From a virus: DNA of 23,815 bases. Positions 1,325 to 23,815 of the stretch are shown here, piece after piece; positions within the stretch are counted from its first letter, which is position 1, and each line of letters starts with the position of its first letter. Made by a program: the position numbers and the translations under genes. The DNA is taken from IMG/VR virus record IMGVR_UViG_3300025168_000674, positions 1 through 23,815 of that record; one strand, given 5' to 3'. A model generated the notes under the pieces. The model did not search any database. It was given only the letters and a program-made list of their open reading frames with translations, and was not told the origin of the DNA.

Positions 1325-3004
1325 TTAAACTCTGTTTAATCCAGCAATGTGGATTTTACCATAGAATTCTGGACGTACCATTTTCTTAGCATAACGAGTC
1401 ATTACACCTTTACGTGGAGTAAAGTTTGTAGGATCGTAAACCAGTGGAGTCATAATCAATGGAATATACGGCGCGTAAACAGCTCCAGTTTCAAGGAATT
1501 GTGTTCCTCTAAATCCTAACAAGATAGTTGCTTCTTTCATGTAAGGGTTTTTGTAAACTGTAAATCTACTATTTAATGCACCAACTTTTTGAACACCCAT
1601 TGCAAATGATGTAGCATCACCAGCAGTATCTGCAGCATATCCTGGAATTGATTCTAAGATAGTTGCAACTTCTGGAGAAGTAACTAGGAAGTTTGCACCG
1701 CCTCTCATTGTTTTTTGGTGTATTTTGTTCGAAACTTTTTGTATTTTAGTACCTAAAGTTTGGAACCAAGTAAATTGAGTATATGCTTCTGCAGCTGTTG
1801 GGCTTACATAAGCACTTGTACCATCATAAGATTCTCCTAATGCAGCAGACCAGTGATCAGTCGTATTAGCATTTTGGATTAACATATCAATAATTTCTAA
1901 ATCAATTTCCATTGAGATATACTCAGATAACATAGAAGTTAATTCAGCTTCTGCATCGATAGAATGGTAAGCATTAAGATCTTGAGCGAACTCAGGAGAC
2001 CATGCAGCTTTCAGTTTTCTAGTCTTAGCAACAATCGCTTCACTTCTTAACTGTACATCGATTTGTGGAATTCCAACATCTTGAGTTGCTAATGATTTAT
2101 CAACATCAGCACCTGCCATCTCAAAGTCATTTCTTAAATCTGCAGTTGTATTAACTGAGAAAGAAACGTTAGTAACAACAGCAACAGAAGTTCTTCCTGC
2201 AGCTGGAGTTGTTGTTTGAGCTAAAAAGAATGAAGCAGAAACTGCTTTTGCAGTATCTGTAGTTTTAACACCATTTGCATCAGTTGCAAAGTTGTATGCA
2301 CTGTAAACCTCGTGGCTACCGTAAACATGTCCAGTTTCTACTGGTGCAACAGATGTAGCTCTTAATGTATTTAAGTCAATTGTAAAAGTTCCGTTAGTTA
2401 AATTGTTAACATCTGTAGACAATTTAATTGCAGAACCATCAGAAACTGAAGCAGATAATGCAGATGCAAAACCTAATTCCGCCCATGAAGCTGATGCAGG
2501 AATTACTTTACCTGCAGCTAAAGATACATTTTTAGTTGCATCAGAATATCCGAATTTACCAGCACCATAAAGACCACCTTCAGCGTCAGCGTCAGATTTT
2601 GATGTGTTACCCATAAGGTCGGCACCTGAAGTTTGTTGTGTTCCGTTGTCGTCACCATATTTAAAGTCTAAGAAAAATACTAGACCTGATGGTAAGTTCA
2701 TTGGTTGTACTGAAACAAAGTCTTTTGCAGCAATTTCACCAAATACTCTACGTACTAGTGGAAGAGCAACTCCTGACCATTGTTCTTTTGAAGCTGTACC
2801 GCTTGAAGTGTTTGATGCTTCATCGATAAGCTGTCTAGCTTGGTTTTCTAATAATACAGCCATTCCTGACTTGTCATATTCTTGGTCTATTCCTTCTAAA
2901 AGACCAGTCTTATTCCATTTAGAAACCAAACCTCTTGTTTGTGCTAGTTGGTTGTTATACGCATCACCAGCACTGTTTAATAAGTTTGAAATGTTTTTTG
3001 ACAT
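1325..3004 (-). CDS. gp23: Major capsid protein, T4 gp23-like
   Basis: 559-residue homologue of the T4 major head protein. The N-terminal block KWNKTGLLEGI ... MAVLLENQARQLIDE is diagnostic, and WSGVALPLVRRVFGEIAAKDFVSVQPMNLPSG continues the family pattern. T4 gp23 is trimmed by the prohead protease after a (L/I)xE site near residue 65; here LIDE|A at 62/63 fits that rule and position, giving a mature protein of about 497 residues. The middle (about 110-300) is Ala/Ser/Thr-rich and probably holds a variable surface insertion. The C-terminus (LVYDPTNFTPRKGVMTRYAKKMVRPEFYG) is conserved. AGGAG precedes the ATG. The gene follows the scaffold gene by 28 bases and is closed by a strong terminator, as expected for a very highly expressed late product. 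Confidence 0.97.
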   Translation of the reverse strand: MSKNISNLLNSAGDAYNNQLAQTRGLVSKWNKTGLLEGIDQEYDKSGMAVLLENQARQLIDEASNTSSGTASKEQWSGVALPLVRRVFGEIAAKDFVSVQPMNLPSGLVFFLDFKYGDDNGTQQTSGADLMGNTSKSDADAEGGLYGAGKFGYSDATKNVSLAAGKVIPASASWAELGFASALSASVSDGSAIKLSTDVNNLTNGTFTIDLNTLRATSVAPVETGHVYGSHEVYSAYNFATDANGVKTTDTAKAVSASFFLAQTTTPAAGRTSVAVVTNVSFSVNTTADLRNDFEMAGADVDKSLATQDVGIPQIDVQLRSEAIVAKTRKLKAAWSPEFAQDLNAYHSIDAEAELTSMLSEYISMEIDLEIIDMLIQNANTTDHWSAALGESYDGTSAYVSPTAAEAYTQFTWFQTLGTKIQKVSNKIHQKTMRGGANFLVTSPEVATILESIPGYAADTAGDATSFAMGVQKVGALNSRFTVYKNPYMKEATILLGFRGTQFLETGAVYAPYIPLIMTPLVYDPTNFTPRKGVMTRYAKKMVRPEFYGKIHIAGLNRV

Positions 3005-3032: not shown

Positions 3033-4097
<1,065 letters not shown>

Positions 4098-4731: not shown

Positions 4732-5772
4732 TTATCTAAGATCGATATAGTCTTTACTTGCATCTACCTTTTTAAGATCTAGTTTTAATGTTTTAAAATA
4801 TTTTTGTATACTTCTTGCATATTTAAGCATTTCTTTTTGATAGTATTTTTCTTCACTCCAAGCTTCTTTATCACCAGACTTTAACTTATTGGCTTTATCT
4901 CTGTCTGCACCTTTTACTGCACTATTTTCTGCTCGTAAATAGTACTCAAAATCTTGTAGTATATCTCTATATCCTCTACTTATTTTAGTAGCTGAATCAT
5001 TCCAACCAGAAGAAACCTTTTTCTTCTTTAACATATCTAATTGTTTATCAACAGACGCCTTATACATCTTTGTCACAGCATCTACCATTTTAATTATTTG
5101 TTCGCCTGGACTAGAATTTGCTAATCTATCTCTTAGCATTGTTTCGTATCTACTTCTGTTTTGTTGGGCAGTTGATTTTGCACCAATAAGGGCAGTTGCT
5201 CCTACTTTTGCAGCTGCTCTACTTGCCCTTAAGTCTTTAGAATCTCCTATTTTACTAAGGTCAATAGTAATTACTTCATCAGCAACCTCTTTAAACCTTT
5301 TATAGTTATGTAGAGCGTCTAAATTTGTTCCCATTGGAGAACCAGTATTACGGCCTTTAGATTTTTCACCGGTAGCAGAATATGTTGTCTTACCAGTACT
5401 TCTGTCGTATCTATCTCTACTAACGTGAATCTTTTCTTTTTTTCTAGTTACACCAATAAGTCCTGGTCTAATTGTCATATCATACATATAGCCACTTCCG
5501 GAATATGGATTTTTCTTAGCTTTATTTACAAAAAAGAAGTTGACTAGTTTAGGGTTAGGACCTTTTCCAAAAGCTTCTTCTGGTGCGTTTGCCCAATCTA
5601 CACTATATGTTTTAGCAAATGCTTGAAAGAATTTTGCATCTGTTCCTTTTAATTTACTATATAATTTGCTAGCAGTCTTAGACTGAAACTTTTCAGACAA
5701 TAGTGATTTTACCAACGCCTTTTTTATTGATTCTCTAATTATAGATCTTAATTTTGAATTTTTCATTACCAT
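4732..5772 (-). CDS. Unknown protein with capsid-targeting-like N-terminus
   Basis: 346 residues, basic, predicted soluble, no family I recognise. The N-terminus is an amphipathic helix ([21 protein letters not shown]) holding IRE|S at 14/15 and LSE|K at 27/28, sites that fit or approach the prohead-protease rule. A Gly/Ser/Lys-rich stretch follows (about 90-150), then an Ala-rich segment and long charged helices (about 215-340). It lies between the prohead protease and the scaffold, so it is probably a capsid-internal or head-assembly protein. The start is either ATG 5772 or ATG 5766; both overlap the upstream stop, and the second leaves a better distance to the GAGAA upstream. Translation is probably coupled to the preceding gene. 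Confidence 0.75.
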
Positions 5773-6335
5773 TTTCTCACAATTGTAGTTTTACCTTGTT
5801 TTCCTGTTACTATTCCCCAACGTTGACCAGTAGGTCCTCCAACTTTTGGAGACATGGTTTCATTTTTAATAGCTTTAGAAACGGTTTTTCTTCTATTTGC
5901 TAAATATTTATCAGATTTGTCTTCGTCACCGTCATTATCAATATCACCATCCTCTTTACCAACTGGATCAAGGGCTTCAGATGTATCATAGTATCTTCCA
6001 AGCTTGTTTCCTAAGTCTTCATAAAGAGACTCTAATCTATTTTGTAAACCTGCAGCCTCTAAAGCTGTTTTTTCAAATAGTTTAGCAGAATTAGTTATTT
6101 CTTTTACATCACGCTTAACAGTAACACCATCAAACCAATCTTCTGTTTCTCCTAATATAAAGTTTCCAGCACCTGAAGATAGTTGGTTCATGGTTTCAGC
6201 TAATCCTTTTAGGTCATGTTCTCTATATATTTGTTTTCCATATTCATTAAACTTTTTCATTGCTTCTAAAAAAGTTGTTTTTTGTTCAGGTGTTAATTTA
6301 CCCTCAGTTAAAACTTGTTTTAATTTTATTGGCAT
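5766..6335 (-). CDS. Unknown protein with a calcium-binding EF-hand/dockerin-like loop
   Basis: 189 residues. It begins [15 protein letters not shown], with LTE|G at 11/12 matching the T4 prohead-protease rule. The middle is helical. Residues 131-142 form a textbook calcium loop with Asp at 131, 133, 135, 137, 139 and 142 and Gly at 136, followed by [10 protein letters not shown]. Such D-x-D-x-DG loops are frequent in marine phage structural proteins. The C-terminus is basic ([10 protein letters not shown]). AGGAG nine bases upstream supports the ATG at 6335. It sits between the protease and scaffold genes, so a head-related role is likely but unproven. Confidence 0.75.
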
Positions 6336-6347
6336 TATATAATTCTC

Positions 6348-6644
6348 CTATCTTTTTAATACTACTATATGTTCTGTTGCTGCCGCTGATGTTGCACTAA
6401 ACAATCCCATTTCATATATTCTTCCTGAATTAACGTCTACCTTATTGATTCCTTCCATGTTTATAATACCACCTCTAGATAATTCTACTTCTCCAGTGTA
6501 TGTACTACCAGAATGATAAAATGCAGCTGCTCCTAGATTAGATCCTGTAAAATGTACTGTGGCATTTGTTACAACAATTGCCTCATTATATTTACCAAAC
6601 GGTCCAAATTTAGCTAAATCTTCTGTTTTAAATCCTTTACTCAT
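6348..6644 (-). CDS. Small beta-rich protein, probable virion component
   Basis: 98 residues. The sequence alternates short hydrophobic strands with Gly/Ser/Thr turns (AIVVTNATVHFTG, YTGEVELSRGG, IEHIVVLKR-like end), suggesting a small beta-sandwich or barrel. No cysteines and no membrane segment. Its ATG overlaps the stop of the protease gene by one base (TAATG) with GGAG at a good distance, so it is co-expressed with the protease. I do not recognise the family; a decoration or adaptor protein is possible, without direct support. Confidence 0.7.
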   Translation of the reverse strand: MSKGFKTEDLAKFGPFGKYNEAIVVTNATVHFTGSNLGAAAFYHSGSTYTGEVELSRGGIINMEGINKVDVNSGRIYEMGLFSATSAAATEHIVVLKR

Positions 6645-7318
6645 TATTTATCTCCACAACAATTTGTCTTTGCTAAATATGGTACCTCACACTTACCAGT
6701 CATCTCGCAAAGAATATCTGATACTAAGGAATTAACCTTATTATATTTATTGTTTATTTTATTTACACTATTGACACTTTCATTGACAGATGTTGTTGGT
6801 TGCATAAAGGCTCCATGAGTAGATGGATTAGAAACAAAGTCCCAACAAATTAACTCAAAATCGTCTTTTACTTGAACAGCACTATCACCGCCTTCGTATA
6901 TTTCTTCTACACTACCTAATCCTCTTGAACTTATACCTAATTTTATACCAGCCTTTAATAATTCTTTAAGGATATTTCCAGCTGGAGTACCCAATACTTC
7001 TATTGTTCCCATTACATCATCACCTTTCCACCAAACGTCTTTTACGTTGTGAGAAACATTTTGTAAATTAACAACACTAGATTCTGGATGGTCAAGTTCT
7101 CCAAGAGCTCTTCTTTCTGTTATGTTTACTTTTTTATAATTTTTTACTTCACGCATTAATATTTCCTTTGGGTATACTCTACCATTTTGGTTTTTAGAGT
7201 TTGCCCTTTGTAAACAACCCGTAACGACAACTTTTCCACCATGCTTTCTTTCGGACTCAATAACAAGTTGAGGGGATACATTAAAGGTTGTATAATCTAT
7301 TAGTAGGCTTTTACTCAT
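6644..7318 (-). CDS. gp21: Prohead core protease, T4 gp21-like
   Basis: 224 residues, serine protease of the phage prohead family. GELDHPE (His at 77), GISSRGLG (Ser at 130/131) and WDFVSNPSTHGAF (Asp at 160) carry the expected catalytic residues; NGRVYP near 45-50 is also family-typical. In T4 the enzyme sits in the prohead core, cleaves scaffold, internal proteins and gp23 at (L/I)xE sites, then digests itself. Matching sites occur in the capsid protein and in many N-termini in this window. The C-terminal 50 residues are Asn/Val-rich and end in a Cys cluster (CEMTGKC ... NCC), which may be removed on activation. GGGA precedes the ATG. Confidence 0.94.
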   Translation of the reverse strand: MSKSLLIDYTTFNVSPQLVIESERKHGGKVVVTGCLQRANSKNQNGRVYPKEILMREVKNYKKVNITERRALGELDHPESSVVNLQNVSHNVKDVWWKGDDVMGTIEVLGTPAGNILKELLKAGIKLGISSRGLGSVEEIYEGGDSAVQVKDDFELICWDFVSNPSTHGAFMQPTTSVNESVNSVNKINNKYNKVNSLVSDILCEMTGKCEVPYLAKTNCCGDK

Positions 7319-12809: not shown

Positions 12810-13496
12810 TTAGTATTCGAATGGTGGTGTTCCATAATCTTTTTGCTGTATTCCGTACCAAGTTTTGCCAACTTGATAATACCACCAACCATGCTTATTG
12901 TCTTCTATAATTTTAAATTTACCCTTTGGTAAAGGTGAATCTTTTTTAGAAGCCCTGGCTATATATTTTAATACTGGTACCCCATCATCCCAAACTTTAT
13001 CTGTTTTTCTAGCCTTTACAGATTTTCTATTTTCTGTATTAGTTGCCATTTGTAGCTTAAATGTTTTGTCATCACCTAAAAAACTTTTCCAAACATCTTC
13101 ATTTAATCCTTCCTTGTTTATTTTTTTAGCAGCTTTAACAGCATCTTTGTGTGCTTTAGAATTTTTATGCGCAGGTTTTTCACCACGTTTTCTTTTAGCA
13201 TGTATATTAGCCCAAAGACCTTTACTTTTTTCCATCAAATCATCTTCAATAGGTTCTGAGTGAAGCGCTTTATTAAATTCTTTTTCAGCCTTTACAACAT
13301 CTTTGTGCATTTTGATTAAAGCTTTCTTTAACCTTTCTTTTTTATTAGGATCTTTTTCTGAAACAAATTTTTTCCTGAGCTGTTGCTGGTTAAGTTGTAT
13401 CTTTTTATAGGTTTCTATTGCCTTAGTAAAGTTTTTTGTAATACTTTCAAGTATTATTTCAGCCAATTCTTCGTTTATTATCTGTTGTATATTCAT
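12810..13496 (-). CDS. Unknown basic protein with SH3-like C-terminus
   Basis: 228 residues. The N-terminus MNIQQIINEELAEIILES carries several (L/I)xE sites (INE|E 9/10, LAE|I 13/14, ILE|S 17/18). A Lys-rich coiled-coil region follows, then KGLWANIHAKRKRGEKPA (about 92-109), a motif I associate with marine phage proteins, and a C-terminal beta-rich module (about 170-228: PVLKYIARAS, GKFKIIEDN, WWYYQVGKTWYGI) that looks SH3-like. The ATG is five bases after the previous stop, with GGGA upstream. It is probably loaded into the head and might bind DNA; neither point is shown directly. Confidence 0.72.
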   Translation of the reverse strand: MNIQQIINEELAEIILESITKNFTKAIETYKKIQLNQQQLRKKFVSEKDPNKKERLKKALIKMHKDVVKAEKEFNKALHSEPIEDDLMEKSKGLWANIHAKRKRGEKPAHKNSKAHKDAVKAAKKINKEGLNEDVWKSFLGDDKTFKLQMATNTENRKSVKARKTDKVWDDGVPVLKYIARASKKDSPLPKGKFKIIEDNKHGWWYYQVGKTWYGIQQKDYGTPPFEY

Positions 13497-14396: not shown

Positions 14397-16793
14397 TTAA
14401 AATGTCATCATACCAGTAATTTGGTTTACTGGTGCGAATGCACCTGTTAATTTATATGTGTTTCCTTTATATATAAAAACTAATCCTTCACTTGGAATTA
14501 TAGTTTTAAATCCTCCAATTGCTGCAATTTTTTTCAATTGTTGAGTCATCCTGTTTAGCTTTTTAAGGTCTCCACCCTTTCTAACATCACTAATTGCTTT
14601 TGCAACTTGTTTTCGCATGTTTTGTATAGCTTTATCTGGATTTGCGGCCAAAAATCCTTCTACATTTTTAAGTACTTCAGCACCTAATTCAAAAAATAAT
14701 GATTCAAATGGAAACATATTTTTTTTAACTTGATTTGCATGTTTTAGTTTATCAAATTCTTTTGCTTTTTTAAGCATATCCTCGTCTGTAAAGTTCTTTT
14801 TGTCTAGTCTAAATGATTTGTCAAAAAATGCCCAACGTTTAACCAATCCCATTTTAATTGTATTATCAACACCTTTCATTTTTTTATCTACAAAATCTTC
14901 CCACCAGGCCTGATGATATTCTGCAAATGTTGATGAGTCTTTCATATTAAACTTTTTCATTAACTTATTTAATTTTCCAGTAAAATATGGCTTTTTAGCA
15001 GAGTAGTCTTGGTGAGGATTCATTTTAAGAACTTTAGGACCAATAATAGAAAAATTCTTTTGTACTTTTTGATTAACTTGTGATATCATTCCTGCAAGTA
15101 TTCTTGCTCCATCAGCAACTGAACCAATAGCTTTTCCACCATTATATTTTAATACATTATGAAACTGTAGATATGGTGCATCATAGGTAATTACATTTGC
15201 AGATGCTGGAAACATAATTTCCATGTTTACCCAGTTATTACCATTATCAAATATTTTTTCTTGTTGTTTTTGGCTTAAACTCCCAATAGCTTTTCCTAAA
15301 TCTTGCATCGCAAAAGTAAAGGCTTTTTCTATATTACCCCTACCTTTAAACTTTGCAGCAACGGCTTTGTAATCCATTCCACCCTTTTTAAGGTCTCCTG
15401 TGTTTCTTGCTGCTAGCATTTTTCCATTCCAACTAATAAATAGGTTTTGGCCATCTGTTTTTTCTGTTGCAGCTTTTTCAAGATCTAGGTTTCCTTGGAG
15501 AGATAAGTTTATAATATTTTTAAAGTCACCAAACGTTAAACCTCTATCATCAAATGGATGAGACATATGACCATAGGCTCCTCCTTCAGTTAGTAATATT
15601 TGATCCACAAGCCAAGTACTTAAAGATTCGTTTGCTTCATCTTTATTTACCTTTAATTTTGGTATATTAGAAATGTCTATTTTCTTTTTTGATTTTTTTT
15701 GTTTTTTAAGAACCATTTGTATTTTTAGTATATCATCATCTTGATTTTGTGGTTCTTCTGGGCTTGATTGTACTTCATCACCTGCTCCTAGAAAATCTAA
15801 AAATTTATATCCAGCAACTTGAGCTATATGTTTTGACCACTTTGCCCATCTGTCATATGCAGTTCTACCTATTTTATCTGCAAGATAGTTTGTTCCAGCT
15901 AAACTCCCAGGTACACCCGTTGGATAATATGAAACTGCTCCTGTTGGACCACCAGTAAAATCTTTTTTAAATTTTGTATCGTGTTGAAAAAATTCTTCTT
16001 CACCTGCAATATAATCTATAACAGCAAAACCCATCCTTTCTGCTAAATCTTTATTTGTTTTTCTATATGATTTTTGGGTACCAAAGAAATATCTAGGACC
16101 ATCATCAGCATCATTAGAGCCTGGTTGTGAGGTTGAAGCTTCTTTGATTATACGTACAATATTACTATCAATACAAAAATTTTCAATAGTTTCATTTAAT
16201 TTTTCTAATTTATTAACTATTAAGTCATAGTTTTTAGTGTGGCCAAATATTCCTTTAAAGGTTTTAAGTTTTTCTTTCTTATCTAATGATTTATCCCCTA
16301 AGGCTTTTCTTATTGCTGTACCACTCATTTCTCCGTATCCTGGTACCTTTAATGAAACATGTGGAGCTATATATGTATATGCACCATCTTTATATCCAAT
16401 TTCAGCCTTACCTTTCCATGGCCTAAAAAACTTACCTGAATCAAGTCTTCCAGCATCTTTTTTACCGACAATAAATACTGCCGCAGTTGTTTTAGGGTCA
16501 TATTTCTTTAGTATTTCGGTTGCTTGATATGTATTTTTTACCTGTTTTACTTTTGAAATTCCATGAGACTTAATTATTTTTTTCTTTTCTGCAAATGAAA
16601 ATGGAGATTTTGGAAGCTCAACTTTGGCACTAGTTGCTACCCATACTTCATCAAATTTTGAACTAACATTTTTATATACTCGTGCATGATGCTTTCCCAT
16701 AGGTTGAAATCTGCCTGGATATATTGCTATAACCTTAGTTATATTTGTATCCTCTATAAGAATTTGCTCGGCTAAATAATTTCCTAGGCTCAC
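14397..16793 (-). CDS. Multidomain protein: nucleotidylyltransferase + unknown domain + ligase-like domain
   Basis: 798 residues from a GTG at 16793, chosen because GTGA overlaps the kinase stop by four bases and AGAAAG precedes it; the ATG at 16829 would overlap by 40 bases and lacks a Shine-Dalgarno. Domain 1 (about 19-200) is an HxGH-type nucleotidylyltransferase resembling NMN adenylyltransferases: PGRFQPMGKHH (26-36), FIVGKKD (107-113), SGTAIRKAL (157-165). Domain 2 (about 219-358) has FFGTQKSY, GPTGAVSYYPTG and GYKFLDFLGA; function unknown. Domain 3 (about 404-798) resembles nucleotidyl-transferring RNA/DNA ligases: EKTDG with Lys 445, NMEIMF (524-529), EGLVF (769-773) and a final Lys near 781. 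Helices ending in protease-type sites precede the domains: LAE|Q 9/10, IKE|A 218/219, LTE|G 403/404. Substrates are unknown. Confidence 0.82.
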   Translation of the reverse strand: MSLGNYLAEQILIEDTNITKVIAIYPGRFQPMGKHHARVYKNVSSKFDEVWVATSAKVELPKSPFSFAEKKKIIKSHGISKVKQVKNTYQATEILKKYDPKTTAAVFIVGKKDAGRLDSGKFFRPWKGKAEIGYKDGAYTYIAPHVSLKVPGYGEMSGTAIRKALGDKSLDKKEKLKTFKGIFGHTKNYDLIVNKLEKLNETIENFCIDSNIVRIIKEASTSQPGSNDADDGPRYFFGTQKSYRKTNKDLAERMGFAVIDYIAGEEEFFQHDTKFKKDFTGGPTGAVSYYPTGVPGSLAGTNYLADKIGRTAYDRWAKWSKHIAQVAGYKFLDFLGAGDEVQSSPEEPQNQDDDILKIQMVLKKQKKSKKKIDISNIPKLKVNKDEANESLSTWLVDQILLTEGGAYGHMSHPFDDRGLTFGDFKNIINLSLQGNLDLEKAATEKTDGQNLFISWNGKMLAARNTGDLKKGGMDYKAVAAKFKGRGNIEKAFTFAMQDLGKAIGSLSQKQQEKIFDNGNNWVNMEIMFPASANVITYDAPYLQFHNVLKYNGGKAIGSVADGARILAGMISQVNQKVQKNFSIIGPKVLKMNPHQDYSAKKPYFTGKLNKLMKKFNMKDSSTFAEYHQAWWEDFVDKKMKGVDNTIKMGLVKRWAFFDKSFRLDKKNFTDEDMLKKAKEFDKLKHANQVKKNMFPFESLFFELGAEVLKNVEGFLAANPDKAIQNMRKQVAKAISDVRKGGDLKKLNRMTQQLKKIAAIGGFKTIIPSEGLVFIYKGNTYKLTGAFAPVNQITGMMTF

Positions 16794-17494
16794 TTTGACT
16801 TTCTCATTTGTATTTCTTTTTTTATCCATTTTTTAGCTAGATGATTTTGTATTGGTCTAGTAATAAATTCTCGGGCGTTTGCCTTTACAACATCTGCAAA
16901 ATCTTTTTTTTCTGAATTATCTACTACCAGCATGTTACTAGATCCAAATAGTGATTGGAATTTACCCATATTATTGTTTACAGCTTGCCAGGCTTTTTTT
17001 ACCAATTCAACAGGCAATTTTCTATCCCTATTGTAATTTCTTTCTATTGCAACATCTAGGTCTGTATTTACAAATATCATAAAGCAATCATAGCCTACGT
17101 CCTCTAGTTTTTTCTTTTGTTTTGCAATATTAGGATAATTTTTACCAGTACCATCAATAAGTAGTCCAAGTCTTCCATTAATATAATTTTTAAGTGCGGC
17201 ATCTCTAACCTTTTTACTTTTGGTTCTTAATAGCATTGCTAGTTTATGGTCATCAACGTCTAGTTTTGCTATATCTTTACTAAGGCCATTCATTTGTAAG
17301 TATGTTTCAAAATATTTATCACTATTAACAGATTTTAATCCTTGCGCAGAAACATGCGGCATTTTTTCAGGCATACCAAATAAACTTGTTGCAGCAAATG
17401 ATTTTCCACTACCAGGACCCCCGGCAGTAAACACAGCTTTAAAAATTCCTGGGTCGTATACGCCCTCGTTTAATATATCCTTTAGTTTAATCAT
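16790..17494 (-). CDS. P-loop kinase, zeta-toxin/polynucleotide-kinase-like
   Basis: 234 residues. It opens MIKLKDILNEGVYDPG, with LNE|G at 10/11 matching the prohead-protease rule, then FKAVFTAGGPGSGKSFAA with Walker A at 25-32. LLIDGTGKN (111-119) and the lid-like ERNYNRDRKLP (151-161) fit small-molecule or nucleic-acid kinases of the zeta-toxin/AAA_33 type. The C-terminal 30 residues are basic. It has no Shine-Dalgarno; the ATG is four bases after an ATATTTATA element. It is translationally coupled to the nucleotidylyltransferase-ligase gene by a GTGA overlap, so the two probably act on related substrates. Phosphate acceptor unknown. Confidence 0.8.
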   Translation of the reverse strand: MIKLKDILNEGVYDPGIFKAVFTAGGPGSGKSFAATSLFGMPEKMPHVSAQGLKSVNSDKYFETYLQMNGLSKDIAKLDVDDHKLAMLLRTKSKKVRDAALKNYINGRLGLLIDGTGKNYPNIAKQKKKLEDVGYDCFMIFVNTDLDVAIERNYNRDRKLPVELVKKAWQAVNNNMGKFQSLFGSSNMLVVDNSEKKDFADVVKANAREFITRPIQNHLAKKWIKKEIQMRKSK

Positions 17495-18066: not shown

Positions 18067-20019
18067 TTAATCTACATTAAATTCAAATACAGAGTTCCAA
18101 TATATAAAATAATCGGTACCATCTGCGGCGGCTGATGTTAGGGCTATTTGAATTTTGTCTCCTTTATCAAATATTGCAGCACCATTAAAATCAATATCAA
18201 CCATAGTATCTTGTGGGTTAACGGTTGCTGTACATGTAGCAGCTGATACTATTGACCCATTTAGGTATAATTCGAAAGTAACAACGCCTATTTTATTTCC
18301 TCCTAAACTTCCAGCAGCTGTAAATTTTCTGATTTTTCCGCCATATGGGGGATGATAACGAACATACCCATTACCTACTTGTGTATTTTCTTTATCTCCA
18401 GTACCAAATGAAATATAGGTTCTAGTTTGATGATCTGCAGACTTTTTATAACTTCCATGCATGATATGAATTATTCCGGTCCCTGTTCCTATCATAGAAC
18501 CAGAATACATTAAATTATTTGCACTTCTAGAACCTGTTATATCTGTAGAGCTTGAAACATATAATAAATTTGAAGTTGTTGAGGGAGAAGTTGAGGGTAA
18601 ATATAAATCATCGGCTGTTACTGTTCCACTTGCACTTATATTTCCTGATGCTGTTACATGAGCATCTAAATGTATTCCTTGATCAGCTATTACATTAACA
18701 AAATTATCTCCGTCAATGTTTATATAATTGTCGGTACCTTTTATTAATTGCCTTTCTCCTGCAGCTGAACTCCATTCTATAGTACCTAATTGAGGTAACA
18801 TTAAACCACTAGCTGTTACTGCTCCACTTGCACTCATATTACCAGAAGCTGTTATGTGTCCATTTGTTGCATGTGTTAATGTAAGATTACCTTGGTTAAG
18901 TTCTAGTTGTGAACTTCTTATTGCAGCTGGCTGTTGGTATGTTCCAAAAACCATTGTAGAGCCATTCCAAATTGCAGCATAATTATCATGAGATTTGAAA
19001 CCTGTTGATAATACTTCACCACTTGCACTTATATTACCTGAGGCTGTTATATGACCCTCACTTGTATCTATTGTTAACTTTATATCATTTGATGCTATTC
19101 CTACTTCTATTGAATCATTTGCAATAAGTTTTACAAATTGATCACCATCTACTGTAATGTTATTTTCATTACCTAAAATATATTGGTCATCACTACCTAT
19201 TACATCGTCAAATCGTAAATATCCTCCTGCCGGGACCTGAAGATTAGCAAAATGTCCATATCCACTTGCACTTATATTACCTGAGGCTGTTATATGGAGT
19301 CCACTTGGAAAATCAATATAACTAGTATTAAAATTAGCCAATACTGTATCATTACCCTCAATTTGTACTGTATCCGAACCCATTTGTAATCCTGTATTTG
19401 CATCTCCTGTTCGGCTTATTAATGAATCTGCTTCTATTTTATTTGCCGTTATAGTTCCACTTGAACTTATATTACCTGAGGCTGTTACGTGACCACTAGT
19501 TCCTAATGTTTGTAAATATCCATTAATTAATAATCCAGTAGCAAAGGATGAATCACCCCTTAGAATAGGGGTTTGTATAGAGGAAGTAACGATTAAATCA
19601 CCATTAAGTGTTGCATCAGTATCATTAATTGTAAATTGAGTTTCAGCAGTTAATGTTCCATCTCCATTTGTTGTTAAAAGTCTATTTGTGCCATCATTGG
19701 TTATAACCTCTGTTAAGTCTAATGTTAAGGTTCTATCATTATCCCCATCAAAATTAACAGCACTATTGCTAAGATCTAAACCAGTACCAATAGTTAAAGC
19801 CCCTTGAGTTTTTTCAGCAACAGATGCAGATTGAGCATACGATGAAGATATTTCATTTGTTATTTCATGAGAAGCAGATACAGCATATGAAGCTGTAACC
19901 TCTAATAATTGTATTAAAGATCCTGTTCCATCAGTAATCTGCCCACTACTAGATATTTGTAAGACTCTCTGATAAGTGTCTTGAATATTTAGGCCTGTGA
20001 AATCATTTGGTCCAGCCAT
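18067..20019 (-). CDS. Tail-fibre protein with SASG repeats
   Basis: 650 residues. After an N-terminal part with GSLIQLLEVTASYAVSASHE, the shaft carries five spaced copies of H(I/V)TASGN(I/M)S(A/S)SG separated by beta-rich stretches (about residues 178-470), the usual look of a trimeric fibre with recurring beta turns. The last 130 residues (from about GIIHIMHGSYKKS) form a different, strand-rich domain that is probably the tip: FTAAGSLGGNKIGVVTFELYLNGS and TSAAADGTDYFIYWNSVFEFNVD. An AGGGG lies upstream of the ATG. It shares the repeat with the protein encoded at 21578-23815 but not the tip. The receptor cannot be predicted. Confidence 0.8.
   Translation of the reverse strand: MAGPNDFTGLNIQDTYQRVLQISSSGQITDGTGSLIQLLEVTASYAVSASHEITNEISSSYAQSASVAEKTQGALTIGTGLDLSNSAVNFDGDNDRTLTLDLTEVITNDGTNRLLTTNGDGTLTAETQFTINDTDATLNGDLIVTSSIQTPILRGDSSFATGLLINGYLQTLGTSGHVTASGNISSSGTITANKIEADSLISRTGDANTGLQMGSDTVQIEGNDTVLANFNTSYIDFPSGLHITASGNISASGYGHFANLQVPAGGYLRFDDVIGSDDQYILGNENNITVDGDQFVKLIANDSIEVGIASNDIKLTIDTSEGHITASGNISASGEVLSTGFKSHDNYAAIWNGSTMVFGTYQQPAAIRSSQLELNQGNLTLTHATNGHITASGNMSASGAVTASGLMLPQLGTIEWSSAAGERQLIKGTDNYINIDGDNFVNVIADQGIHLDAHVTASGNISASGTVTADDLYLPSTSPSTTSNLLYVSSSTDITGSRSANNLMYSGSMIGTGTGIIHIMHGSYKKSADHQTRTYISFGTGDKENTQVGNGYVRYHPPYGGKIRKFTAAGSLGGNKIGVVTFELYLNGSIVSAATCTATVNPQDTMVDIDFNGAAIFDKGDKIQIALTSAAADGTDYFIYWNSVFEFNVD
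18626..19491 (-). repeat. Five dispersed ~35-bp repeats in the fibre gene
   Basis: Copies begin at about 18626, 18824, 19019, 19262 and 19457. The plus strand of each opens CCACTTGNACT and continues to a GCTGTTA-type end. The copies at 19019 and 19262 are identical over about 35 bases. They encode the TASGNISASG shaft unit. Confidence 0.85.
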
Positions 20020-21577: not shown

Positions 21578-23815
21578 TTACTCCGTTGTTATTCCATCTA
21601 GTCTATAATTAAATCTCCAGGCCTGAGTTCCAGTACCTTCATTTTTCATCATTACAGCTATTAGTTCGTGTCCTGGGTTAGGGGTAAAAGCCTTACTACC
21701 AGTTATGTTTATGTGATATGAGTGTTGACCACTTCCATTTGTTTCGCCGTCTGCAATACCATGTAATGATTGAGAGGCTGCAAACCCCATAGAAACATTT
21801 GAATTACTATCACTATCGATACTTCCAGTATAAATCCATATAGTTGGGTTTTGCGATGAACCACATCTTTGATTTGATTTTAAAGTTACGTCTTTAACAC
21901 CACATGGTATTATATGTAAGTTGTTGATATATTGCGGAGGTATAGCGGTTGGGTCTGATACCTGTACAGTCCAAGTATTACTAACTAATCCATTTGAACC
22001 ACCATAAAAATATTTGTTTTGTGTTGGAGTAGATATATTTGCAGATGCAAGTGCTATATTAATTCGTTGTCCTACAAAACTACTTGCACTTATAATTGAT
22101 GCTGTTACAGGAGATTGAAGGTTTATAGAGGTACCAATTATATCTGTATCTACTGCATCATTTCCTACCTGTAAATCAGAAGATGTTAACCATATATATT
22201 TAGCCCCATTTAATTTGAAGCCTGTAACTGATGTTGTAGAATTATAATAATCGGCTGTTATGTTTCCATCTGTTGAAATATTGCCAGTTGCTATAATGGC
22301 CCCACTTGCACTTATATCGCCTGATGCTGTTAGGTTTGTAAATGTTTGTAAAGAGCTTGAGTAAACACCACTTGGTAAATTTGCTTTAACATTAGTTGCA
22401 TCTACATTATCAGCACCTTCTTCAATGGCATCTAGTTTATCTTTTAAAGTATTTGTAAAGTCATTAGCAGTTTGAGCAGGTAAATTTGTTAGATTAGCCC
22501 CATCTCCTGCAAATCTTCTTCCAGTAATATCACCACTTGCACTTATATTAGAACCCGTTATATGGGATGTAGCATGTATATCGCCTTCCACACGTAATGT
22601 TGACCTAACTACTGGAGGTACAGATGCTCCAATTAATAGTTTACCACCTACAGTAAAATCATCTGTTATAAGACCATCATCAGAAATTATTAATCCTTCA
22701 CCATATAATATACCACTTGCACTTATATTACCTGAGGATGTTATGTGTGTTCCTGTAAATCCAGTTGATGATTGAATTTGACCACCAAAAGTTCCTATAA
22801 AGGCATCATTAAAACCATTAGGGTAAACTCTATTACCAATTATATTTCCACTTGCACTTATCTGCCCTGAGACTGTTACATGAGTGGAAAAATGATTGGC
22901 TTGAGTTGAAGTTCCAAAATAATTAATATCATTATCATTATATGCTACTTGATTTCCATTTGAAACAAATCTATCCGCGTATACATTACCACTTGCAGTT
23001 ATATTACCTGAGGCTGATAATGCTGTTAGAGATACATGAACAGCTGTTCCAAATGTAGCTTTAGCTGACGGTCCATCAAGTTTAAGCATTGTGTTGCTTG
23101 ATGCGGCCTCTCCTAATGATGATGCAACATTAAAATTCAATGATCCAACCGTACCTACTTCTGTTGTTTCTATACATTCTGCAGATATGGCTGCCATTTC
23201 TCCTGATGATCTTTTGTTAAGAGAACCAGATTCTTGTATCCATCTTATAGAACCAAGAATGTCACCTTCTAACAATCTAACTGGTAAAGCCTTTGTTCCT
23301 CTAGCAAACTTTAATATAATTTCACTTCCAGTACTGGCACCATCGGTTTCAAATGCAAATGATTCGAAGTTTCCTTCGTCATTCATTTCAACACCTCTAT
23401 CCTTACTTTTTTGTTTAAATTTAATTTTGTCTGCTTTAAATTCTATTTCTTCTTCTGGATTAGTTGTTCCAAATCCTATACGCCCTTGATCACCTGATGA
23501 AGTAAAATATATTCCTGAATGGCCTGATCCTGTAATCATAAATGAAGAACCAGATCCACCTTCTTCTGGATCAGGTTGTATAACCATTGCAAAGGATTCA
23601 CTAGTATAATGTTTAAAATTAGAAGAGGAAACTGAACCAGAAAGAAGTATTGCAAACGATCCTGAGACTATTTGGAATCCTGGAGATGCTGGATCTGCCA
23701 TAAGTCCACCTGGAAACTGTATAATATTCTTTGATGCAGGACCATCTGTAAAATCATTTGATGCATACATTAATTTTGATTCTGAGTCCCACCACACAAA
23801 ATAATTATTATCATT
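21578..23815 (-). CDS. Large tail-fibre/structural protein with SASG repeats, 5' end beyond window
   Basis: 745 codons are visible and the frame is still open at the window edge. The GTG at 23797 is therefore probably not the start: the residues before it (NDNNYFV) join smoothly to WWDSESKLMYAS. The N-terminal part seen (about 90-170) has GRIGFGTTNPEEEIEFKADKIKF, then a region of small beta units, then repeated S(A/T)SGN/D-type units at about 275-530 (for example HITSSGNISASG and NLTASGDISASG). A DFTNTLKDKLDAIEEGAD segment (about 460-477) is common in phage fibre proteins. The last 150 residues are a separate beta-rich domain. It shares shaft repeats with the 650-residue fibre protein. Probably a distal or side tail fibre. 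Confidence 0.78.
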   Translation of the reverse strand, partial: NDNNYFVWWDSESKLMYASNDFTDGPASKNIIQFPGGLMADPASPGFQIVSGSFAILLSGSVSSSNFKHYTSESFAMVIQPDPEEGGSGSSFMITGSGHSGIYFTSSGDQGRIGFGTTNPEEEIEFKADKIKFKQKSKDRGVEMNDEGNFESFAFETDGASTGSEIILKFARGTKALPVRLLEGDILGSIRWIQESGSLNKRSSGEMAAISAECIETTEVGTVGSLNFNVASSLGEAASSNTMLKLDGPSAKATFGTAVHVSLTALSASGNITASGNVYADRFVSNGNQVAYNDNDINYFGTSTQANHFSTHVTVSGQISASGNIIGNRVYPNGFNDAFIGTFGGQIQSSTGFTGTHITSSGNISASGILYGEGLIISDDGLITDDFTVGGKLLIGASVPPVVRSTLRVEGDIHATSHITGSNISASGDITGRRFAGDGANLTNLPAQTANDFTNTLKDKLDAIEEGADNVDATNVKANLPSGVYSSSLQTFTNLTASGDISASGAIIATGNISTDGNITADYYNSTTSVTGFKLNGAKYIWLTSSDLQVGNDAVDTDIIGTSINLQSPVTASIISASSFVGQRINIALASANISTPTQNKYFYGGSNGLVSNTWTVQVSDPTAIPPQYINNLHIIPCGVKDVTLKSNQRCGSSQNPTIWIYTGSIDSDSNSNVSMGFAASQSLHGIADGETNGSGQHSYHINITGSKAFTPNPGHELIAVMMKNEGTGTQAWRFNYRLDGITTE
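22080..23018 (-). repeat. Dispersed ~30-35-bp repeats in the larger fibre gene
   Basis: Copies begin near 22080 (diverged), 22302, 22533, 22713, 22848 and 22989. They use the same CCACTTGCACTTAT-type opening as the repeats at 18626-19491 in the other fibre gene. They encode SASGNI/SASGDI shaft turns. Confidence 0.82.

Follow-up and report, generated by a model that had tools for sequence, protein, structure and literature searches.

The question raised by this locus was whether a single reading frame that fuses several enzyme-like modules encodes one multidomain enzyme or a chain of cargo proteins that is loaded into a phage head and cut there. The source was a 23.8-kb viral record, analysed over its whole length of 23,815 nucleotides and called the window here. 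The gene had been placed at 14397–16793 with the strand omitted; these coordinates stood, with the gene on the minus strand. GTG at 16793 is the likelier start because relatives show ATG at the equivalent place, and residues were numbered from this GTG. The fusion of three modules in one frame was borne out. The 798-residue protein carries a nucleotidylyltransferase-like module 1 (M1), a module 2 (M2) and a module 3 (M3) with ligase-like motifs, and the sites IKE/A and LTE/G (the slash marks a predicted cut) fall where modules end and start. The gene and its parts are as follows.

14397–16829, minus strand: polyprotein gene, 810 residues from ATG 16829 or 798 residues from GTG 16793, stop at 14397
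16752–16793, minus strand: N-terminal targeting-type peptide MSLGNYLAEQILIE, residues 1–14, predicted cut LIE/D at 14/15
16179–16751, minus strand: M1, nucleotidylyltransferase-like (GRFQPMGKHH ... MSGTAIR), residues 15–205, PF01467 and PHROG 395
16140–16178, minus strand: internal peptide FCIDSNIVRIIKE, residues 206–218, predicted cut IKE/A at 218/219
15639–16139, minus strand: M2, fast-diverging, residues 219–385, 26–70% identity among relatives
15585–15629, minus strand: internal peptide ESLSTWLVDQILLTE, residues 389–403, duplicate of the peptide at the N-terminus, predicted cut LTE/G at 403/404
14400–15584, minus strand: M3, ligase-like by motif (KTDGQN, EGLVF, YKLTG), residues 404–798

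We propose, with a probability of about 0.78, that this gene encodes a polyprotein of modular cargo for a T4-type head, which would be loaded, cut by the gp21-type protease and delivered by injection of its modules. The proposal builds on the fusion, the repeated peptides, the conserved sites, the module swaps and the protease gene, all of which are present as read from the sequence; packaging, cutting and injection are predicted from it. Each module is immediately preceded by a short amphipathic peptide that ends in (L/I)xE, the cleavage motif of the T4 family of prohead proteases, and these peptides would be capsid-targeting sequences by which the chain is drawn into the core of the scaffold. 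During head maturation the protease encoded at 6644–7318, of the gp21 type, would cut after the Glu residues, and the freed modules would be retained there until they pass into the next host alongside the DNA. There the modules, namely the nucleotidylyltransferase, a P-loop kinase, the ligase-like M3 and, in a relative, a CCA-adding-type enzyme, may at an early stage work on RNA or nucleotides of host or phage; they are candidate early-takeover or counter-defence enzymes. That this kit of kinase, nucleotidylyltransferase, ligase-like and CCA-adding-type activities mends RNA that host defences have damaged, such as tRNA, is a tentative suggestion that fits the kit but is doubtful.

The identities of the modules were examined separately. 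M1 matched PF01467 (CTP_transf_like) of Pfam above the cut-off (E 7.6e-6) and PHROG 395, a cytidyltransferase, and a profile search of solved structures gave weak matches to phosphopantetheine and NMN adenylyltransferases. On the Pfam match M1 is nucleotidylyltransferase-like, as in the original prediction, but the HxGH motif named there is not canonical: the window copy has the degenerate form GRFQPM-GKHH with an intact SGTAIR motif, and the canonical HxGH was found only in some relatives (L083, L202 and L205). M2 had no Pfam match and gave nothing in the profile search of solved structures, and no relatives of it were found outside the polyprotein family. Its AF2 model from 33 sequences, with a pLDDT of 52.5, was not usable for a fold search. 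M3 likewise had no match in Pfam or in the profile search of solved structures. Its AF2 model reached a pLDDT of 75.5; the search of this model against PDB folds gave no match, and that against viral folds gave only its own homologues and weak, sub-threshold RNA ligases. The motifs KxDG, EGxVF and YKxTG, on which the ligase assignment is based, are invariant among the relatives, and since Pfam and the PDB fold search were empty and the RNA-ligase matches sub-threshold, “ligase-like” is used for M3 as a motif-level label.

The neighbourhood of the gene is that of a T4-type head. Two genes bear directly on the proposal.

6644–7318, minus strand: prohead protease of the gp21 type (Peptidase_S77), predicted to do the cutting, PF03420 E 2.9e-31, PHROG 207
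1325–3004, minus strand: gp23-type major capsid protein, PF07068, with a T4-like propeptide end QLIDE62/A63

The prohead protease gene was found in 11 of the 13 related contigs tested, the two without it being the shortest. T4 gp23 is cut at residue 65, and the QLIDE62/A63 site of the window capsid protein lies near that place and was kept in 3 of 3 relatives. Terminase, portal and scaffold-like genes of the window were assigned from the frames and their order, the scaffold protein being placed at 3033–4097. As with the T4 cargo genes, the gp21-family protease and the gp20-, gp22- and gp23-type genes lie in the same contig. The window also encodes two long fibre-like proteins on the minus strand (18067–20019 and 21578–23815), in which (I/V)TASGNISASG motifs are repeated.

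The sites between modules were followed through relatives. The M3 scans of viral contigs covered 80 loci near the window and 80 from the sister group, about 160 related marine phage loci; the family is common, at least 600 stretches having matched in the sister-group scan, of which 586 were confirmed. The M2 boundary was positioned with a profile HMM. In the counts that follow, which are of sequences and not of independent evolutionary events, the residue before M2 (P1) was Glu in 119 of the 120 aligned proteins, the lone exception, ILE/S, being a one-residue misalignment, and P3 was Ile in 71, Leu in 45, Met in 3 and Val in 1. Among 95 distinct M2 junctions this Glu carried 4.2 bits, the top of 27 columns, with several neighbours at 0.5–1 bit, and in a 34-member alignment of M2 (26–70% identity to the window copy) it was among seven invariant columns. 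At the 92 distinct M3 junctions of the Glu type, P1 was Glu in every case and P3 was Leu or Ile, with variable sequence upstream, while across all 158 loci the residue before GGAYGHM was Glu in 122, Met in 35 and Cys in one. The background frequency of [LI]xE in the same proteins was 0.84% per position. Both internal sites of the original prediction, IKE/A at 218/219 and LTE/G at 403/404, are therefore present and conserved far above chance (119/120 and, for the Glu type, 92/92). The N-terminal site it had named fared differently: LAE/Q at 9/10 is present in the sequence but was conserved in only 19 of 38 relatives, against 37 of 38 with Glu at LIE/D (14/15), and was rejected as the N-terminal cut site. 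The (L/I)xE motif of T4-type prohead protease substrates was kept at the N-terminus and ahead of both M2 and M3. Where long relatives have a boundary ahead of M1, it is looser, with a strict [LI]xE in 8 of 20 and [LIVF]xE in 17 of 20. The boundary sites are evidently under selection.

This conservation bears on whether the chain is cut at all. The peptides might only target or tether it, so that the chain would be packaged whole and, still uncut, would work after injection as a single multidomain enzyme, in the style of the polyvalent proteins. Such an arrangement has precedents, as the virion RNA polymerase of N4 is packaged unprocessed (PMC5512222) and targeting in T4 is separable from processing, an Asp at position 10 stopping the cutting and not the targeting (PMC9026906). 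For targeting alone, however, it would be needless that the P1 Glu is the most conserved residue of the M2 linker and that the Leu or Ile at P3 is kept too, and we consider an uncut chain unlikely.

The peptides themselves were then compared with one another and with those of separate genes. In 33 of 56 proteins, none of about 300 windows resembled the N-terminal peptide of the same protein more closely than did the peptide before M3, the maximum seen being 9 of 13 identical residues in L030 (LGDYLAEQILLEE against LGQWLANQILLSE); judged by this comparison, the two peptides are copies of one sequence. The internal peptide FCIDSNIVRIIKE has hydrophobic residues at E-6, E-3 and E-2. In T4, the internal protein IPIII begins MKTYQEFIAE/A. 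A stand-alone M3 of a huge phage (L084/L085), which opens MKFLKSYEEFLNE/NLILE/GGSYGH, is laid out in the same way, and the T4-like spacing of hydrophobic residues ahead of the Glu was found in MSLGNYLAEQILIE, in MIKLKDILNE of the kinase described below and in MKFLKSYEEFLNE when set against IPIII. Of the three modules, M3 was thus found as a stand-alone homologue with a matching N-terminus; among the relatives neither M1 nor M2 turned up alone, and the alignment of M2 was too variable for a search of viral contigs. The family is not one that is always fused and devoid of (L/I)xE sites, since M3 occurs alone behind a T4-like peptide in L084/L085. Three further genes of the window carry related features.

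16790–17494, minus strand: P-loop kinase (zeta-toxin/PNK-like), a separate gene just upstream, PF06414 E 8.4e-10, N-terminus MIKLKDILNE/GVYDPG
12810–13496, minus strand: second, smaller gene of the same build, with LME89/KSKGLWANIHAKRKRGEK and a possible LNE133/D before a YkuD-like region
5766–6335, minus strand: small gene with a targeting-type N-terminus

The kinase is found inside chains of relatives as NINE/GVNDPG, SIRE/GVNDPG, QLKE/GVEDKG and LFE/GKNDPG; its E/G was kept in 40 of 40 distinct sequences, and the sequence before it was unrelated. Of these 40 kinases, 33 had a short upstream frame and seven were long fused forms, six of which share a frame with M3. In the smaller gene, whose YkuD-like region scored below the Pfam cut-off (E 0.019), the GLWANIHAK module stands behind an internal DLME/KSKGLWANIHAK, and in a 170-kb relative (G001) it is a separate gene beginning MKLQDILTE/KNKGLWANIHAK; two internal relatives (L002 and L004) have MDE at the site. 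The same modules thus occur both alone and in chains, and in either setting the site falls at the same residue; the boundary sites are kept while the flanks diverge. In the 5766–6335 gene, residues 127–164 hold an acidic motif common to several PHROGs, one of them called cytidyltransferase, which is also seen near the C-terminus of a protein of phage HTVC008M.

Plain [LI]xE is only mildly enriched in N-termini genome-wide (0.30–0.52 of proteins against 0.20–0.25 in body windows), and a position-specific test was needed. N-termini with hydrophobic residues at E-6, E-3 and E-2 and Glu at positions 8–11 numbered 7 against 0.88 expected (p 3.7e-5), and a second count of the same pattern gave 5 against 0.41 (p 7e-5). 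Targeting-type N-termini are clearly, though modestly, enriched. In the 170-kb relative many of them, of the form M(I)KLxxILxE/, lie in one stretch of consecutive genes (L105–L113, about 96.5–113 kb) that includes the kinase and a HAD-type phosphatase and is possibly a cluster of injected proteins.

These peptides also bear on whether the protein goes to the head at all. A plain multidomain enzyme that is made during infection and works on RNA or nucleotides in the cytoplasm, with a structural role for the conserved Glu and an incidental neighbourhood of head genes, would agree with the resemblance of the modules to nucleotide or RNA enzymes, and the internal start of one clade (see below) would provide infected cells with an M3 that has no targeting peptide. 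It is nevertheless very improbable, as it leaves unexplained why the same peptide stands at residues ~9–18 of the stand-alone M3, kinase and GLWANIHAK genes, why unrelated modules share it, and why it is repeated within the chain.

Further evidence for the modular cargo polyprotein came from the composition of the chains. In the sister group they range from about 650 to about 1,900 residues with modules swapped. L134 has the order MNKLTKWLVE/SILTE/A..., mini-module, kinase, another module, M1, M2 and M3. L160 carries a CCA-adding-type tRNA nucleotidyltransferase behind NISE/N (PF01743 E 5.7e-29; PHROG 2244 E 7e-59), and L188 a PF05618 module. The place of M2 is taken by an unrelated module in L065, between IIRE/E and ILTE/GG, and by yet another in L202. 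The mini-module (IxVGDTVxxGxFKNKK...NGRPALK), which is present in the chains of L045, L050, L054, L134, L160, L179 and L181 and stands behind LTE/N in the first two, is a separate gene (AGE60462) in the Pelagibacter phage HTVC008M. The Microcystis phage Mel-JY01 carries an M1+M3 form (WWT39297.1), whose M3 would begin GGLGGHMNHP if cut. Taken more widely, we consider it probable that ocean tailed phages use true cargo polyproteins, in which interchangeable cassettes with their own targeting and cutting peptides, up to about 1,900 residues in all, would be loaded together and then separated by the head protease, one clade having swapped the last cut for an internal start.

This clade comprises the 35 of 158 loci with Met before M3 (within L118–L197, for example L125, L139, L153, L166 and L177), plus L205. 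M1 and M3 form one open frame in it and not separate genes (for example in L125 and L139), and its contexts sort into about 13 groups with less than 85% nucleotide identity between them. The codons AAG GAG lie nine bases before the ATG in 34 of the 35, the remaining one having AGG GAG, and with L205 added AAGGAG occurs in 35 of 36 cases; in these frames AAG makes up 25% of Lys and GAG 24% of Glu codons. L205 retains AAGGAG although all three of its Leu codons differ from the commonest form. Shine-Dalgarno-type signals precede 32–46% of starts in this phage group, against 2–6% of random positions. Because of the Met and the internal Shine-Dalgarno sequence, M3 is not cut at its boundary residue here; an internal ribosome start appears to replace the lost protease site, and once the Met is removed the N-terminus of M3 would be identical. 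This argues that M3 functions as a free protein with GG at its start, for which the protease would then not be the sole solution.

The clade speaks to both remaining ways of doing without the head protease. Its M3 without a protease site agrees with an uncut chain, but the replacement of that site by a start giving the same N-terminus suggests that a free M3 is required. Release of the modules by a host protease, by self-cleavage or by internal translation starts only would draw on the strongly conserved Shine-Dalgarno sequence and ATG before M3 in this clade (AAGGAG 34/35). We hold it to be very unlikely, since the internal-start clade still has Glu at the M2 boundary and most loci have no ATG before M3 (Glu in 122/158); self-cleavage was set aside because no embedded peptidase domain was found in the window protein by Pfam.

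Cutting by the head protease can be compared with several known systems. T4 gp21 cuts at L/I-x-E, and in the 10-residue peptide of IPIII residues 4 and 7 target while 8 and 10 direct processing (PMC9026906), positions that the spacing in MIKLKDILNE of the kinase matches; T4 Alt, itself an enzyme, loses a piece at either end, through cuts at ITE-6 and LTE-619 (PMC5694885). Like IPI–III and Alt, the present proteins have a short N-terminal peptide ending in (L/I)xE with hydrophobic residues at E-6, E-3 and E-2. Unlike T4, with one cargo per gene, several different modules share a chain and the peptide is repeated internally. The polyvalent proteins (Iyer et al, 2017) are many-domain, mosaic, and predicted to be packaged and injected, and their authors draw the comparison with viral polyproteins (PMC5512222). 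The present chains have several enzyme-like domains and are predicted to be packaged. Polyvalent proteins are, however, thought to be released by embedded peptidases, which are common and not universal (PMC5512222), whereas a separate head protease is the predicted means here and each module keeps a targeting-type peptide; one relative, L188, does have its PF05618 module in the chain. In phiKZ and SPN3US, the Glu-directed prohead proteases gp175 and gp245 have many substrates with long, multiply cut propeptides (PMC10052503, PMC5694885), but each protein gives one mature product, the motif is A/S-x-E and those reports contain no multi-enzyme chain. In Ms6 a lysin gene is reported to be embedded in lysA with an in-frame internal start (PMC3111421), and one frame likewise gives a long and a shorter product in the Met-type clade, where in difference from Ms6 the internal start sits where the other clade has a protease site. 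A multi-enzyme chain cut by a head protease into separate injected proteins was not found in the literature searched, most of it outside subscription journals, and its novelty is provisional; the same literature gave neither virion proteomics nor a cleavage assay of a carrier of the gene.

If the proposal is true, the chain would be a tailed-phage counterpart of Gag-type polyprotein maturation and would suggest a route to loading several injected proteins in equal amounts. The (L/I)xE peptides would then be a signature for spotting injected effectors in uncultured marine phages, many of whose late genes are unannotated, and could double as packaging tags.

Two minor observations concern the wider group. 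Host assignment from contigs of Flavobacteriales, Pelagibacteraceae and other MAGs was set aside, these contigs being probably binned phage DNA. In the Agrobacterium phage Atu_ph07 (L089:190–5590), tandem genes open with MRWEQLTE, MRWEQLNE and MKWNDLNE; a 778-residue member has a first domain that resembles ADP-ribosyltransferases by eye, a kinase behind VTE/G and two repeats opening LxELFDT, and is possibly another cargo polyprotein.
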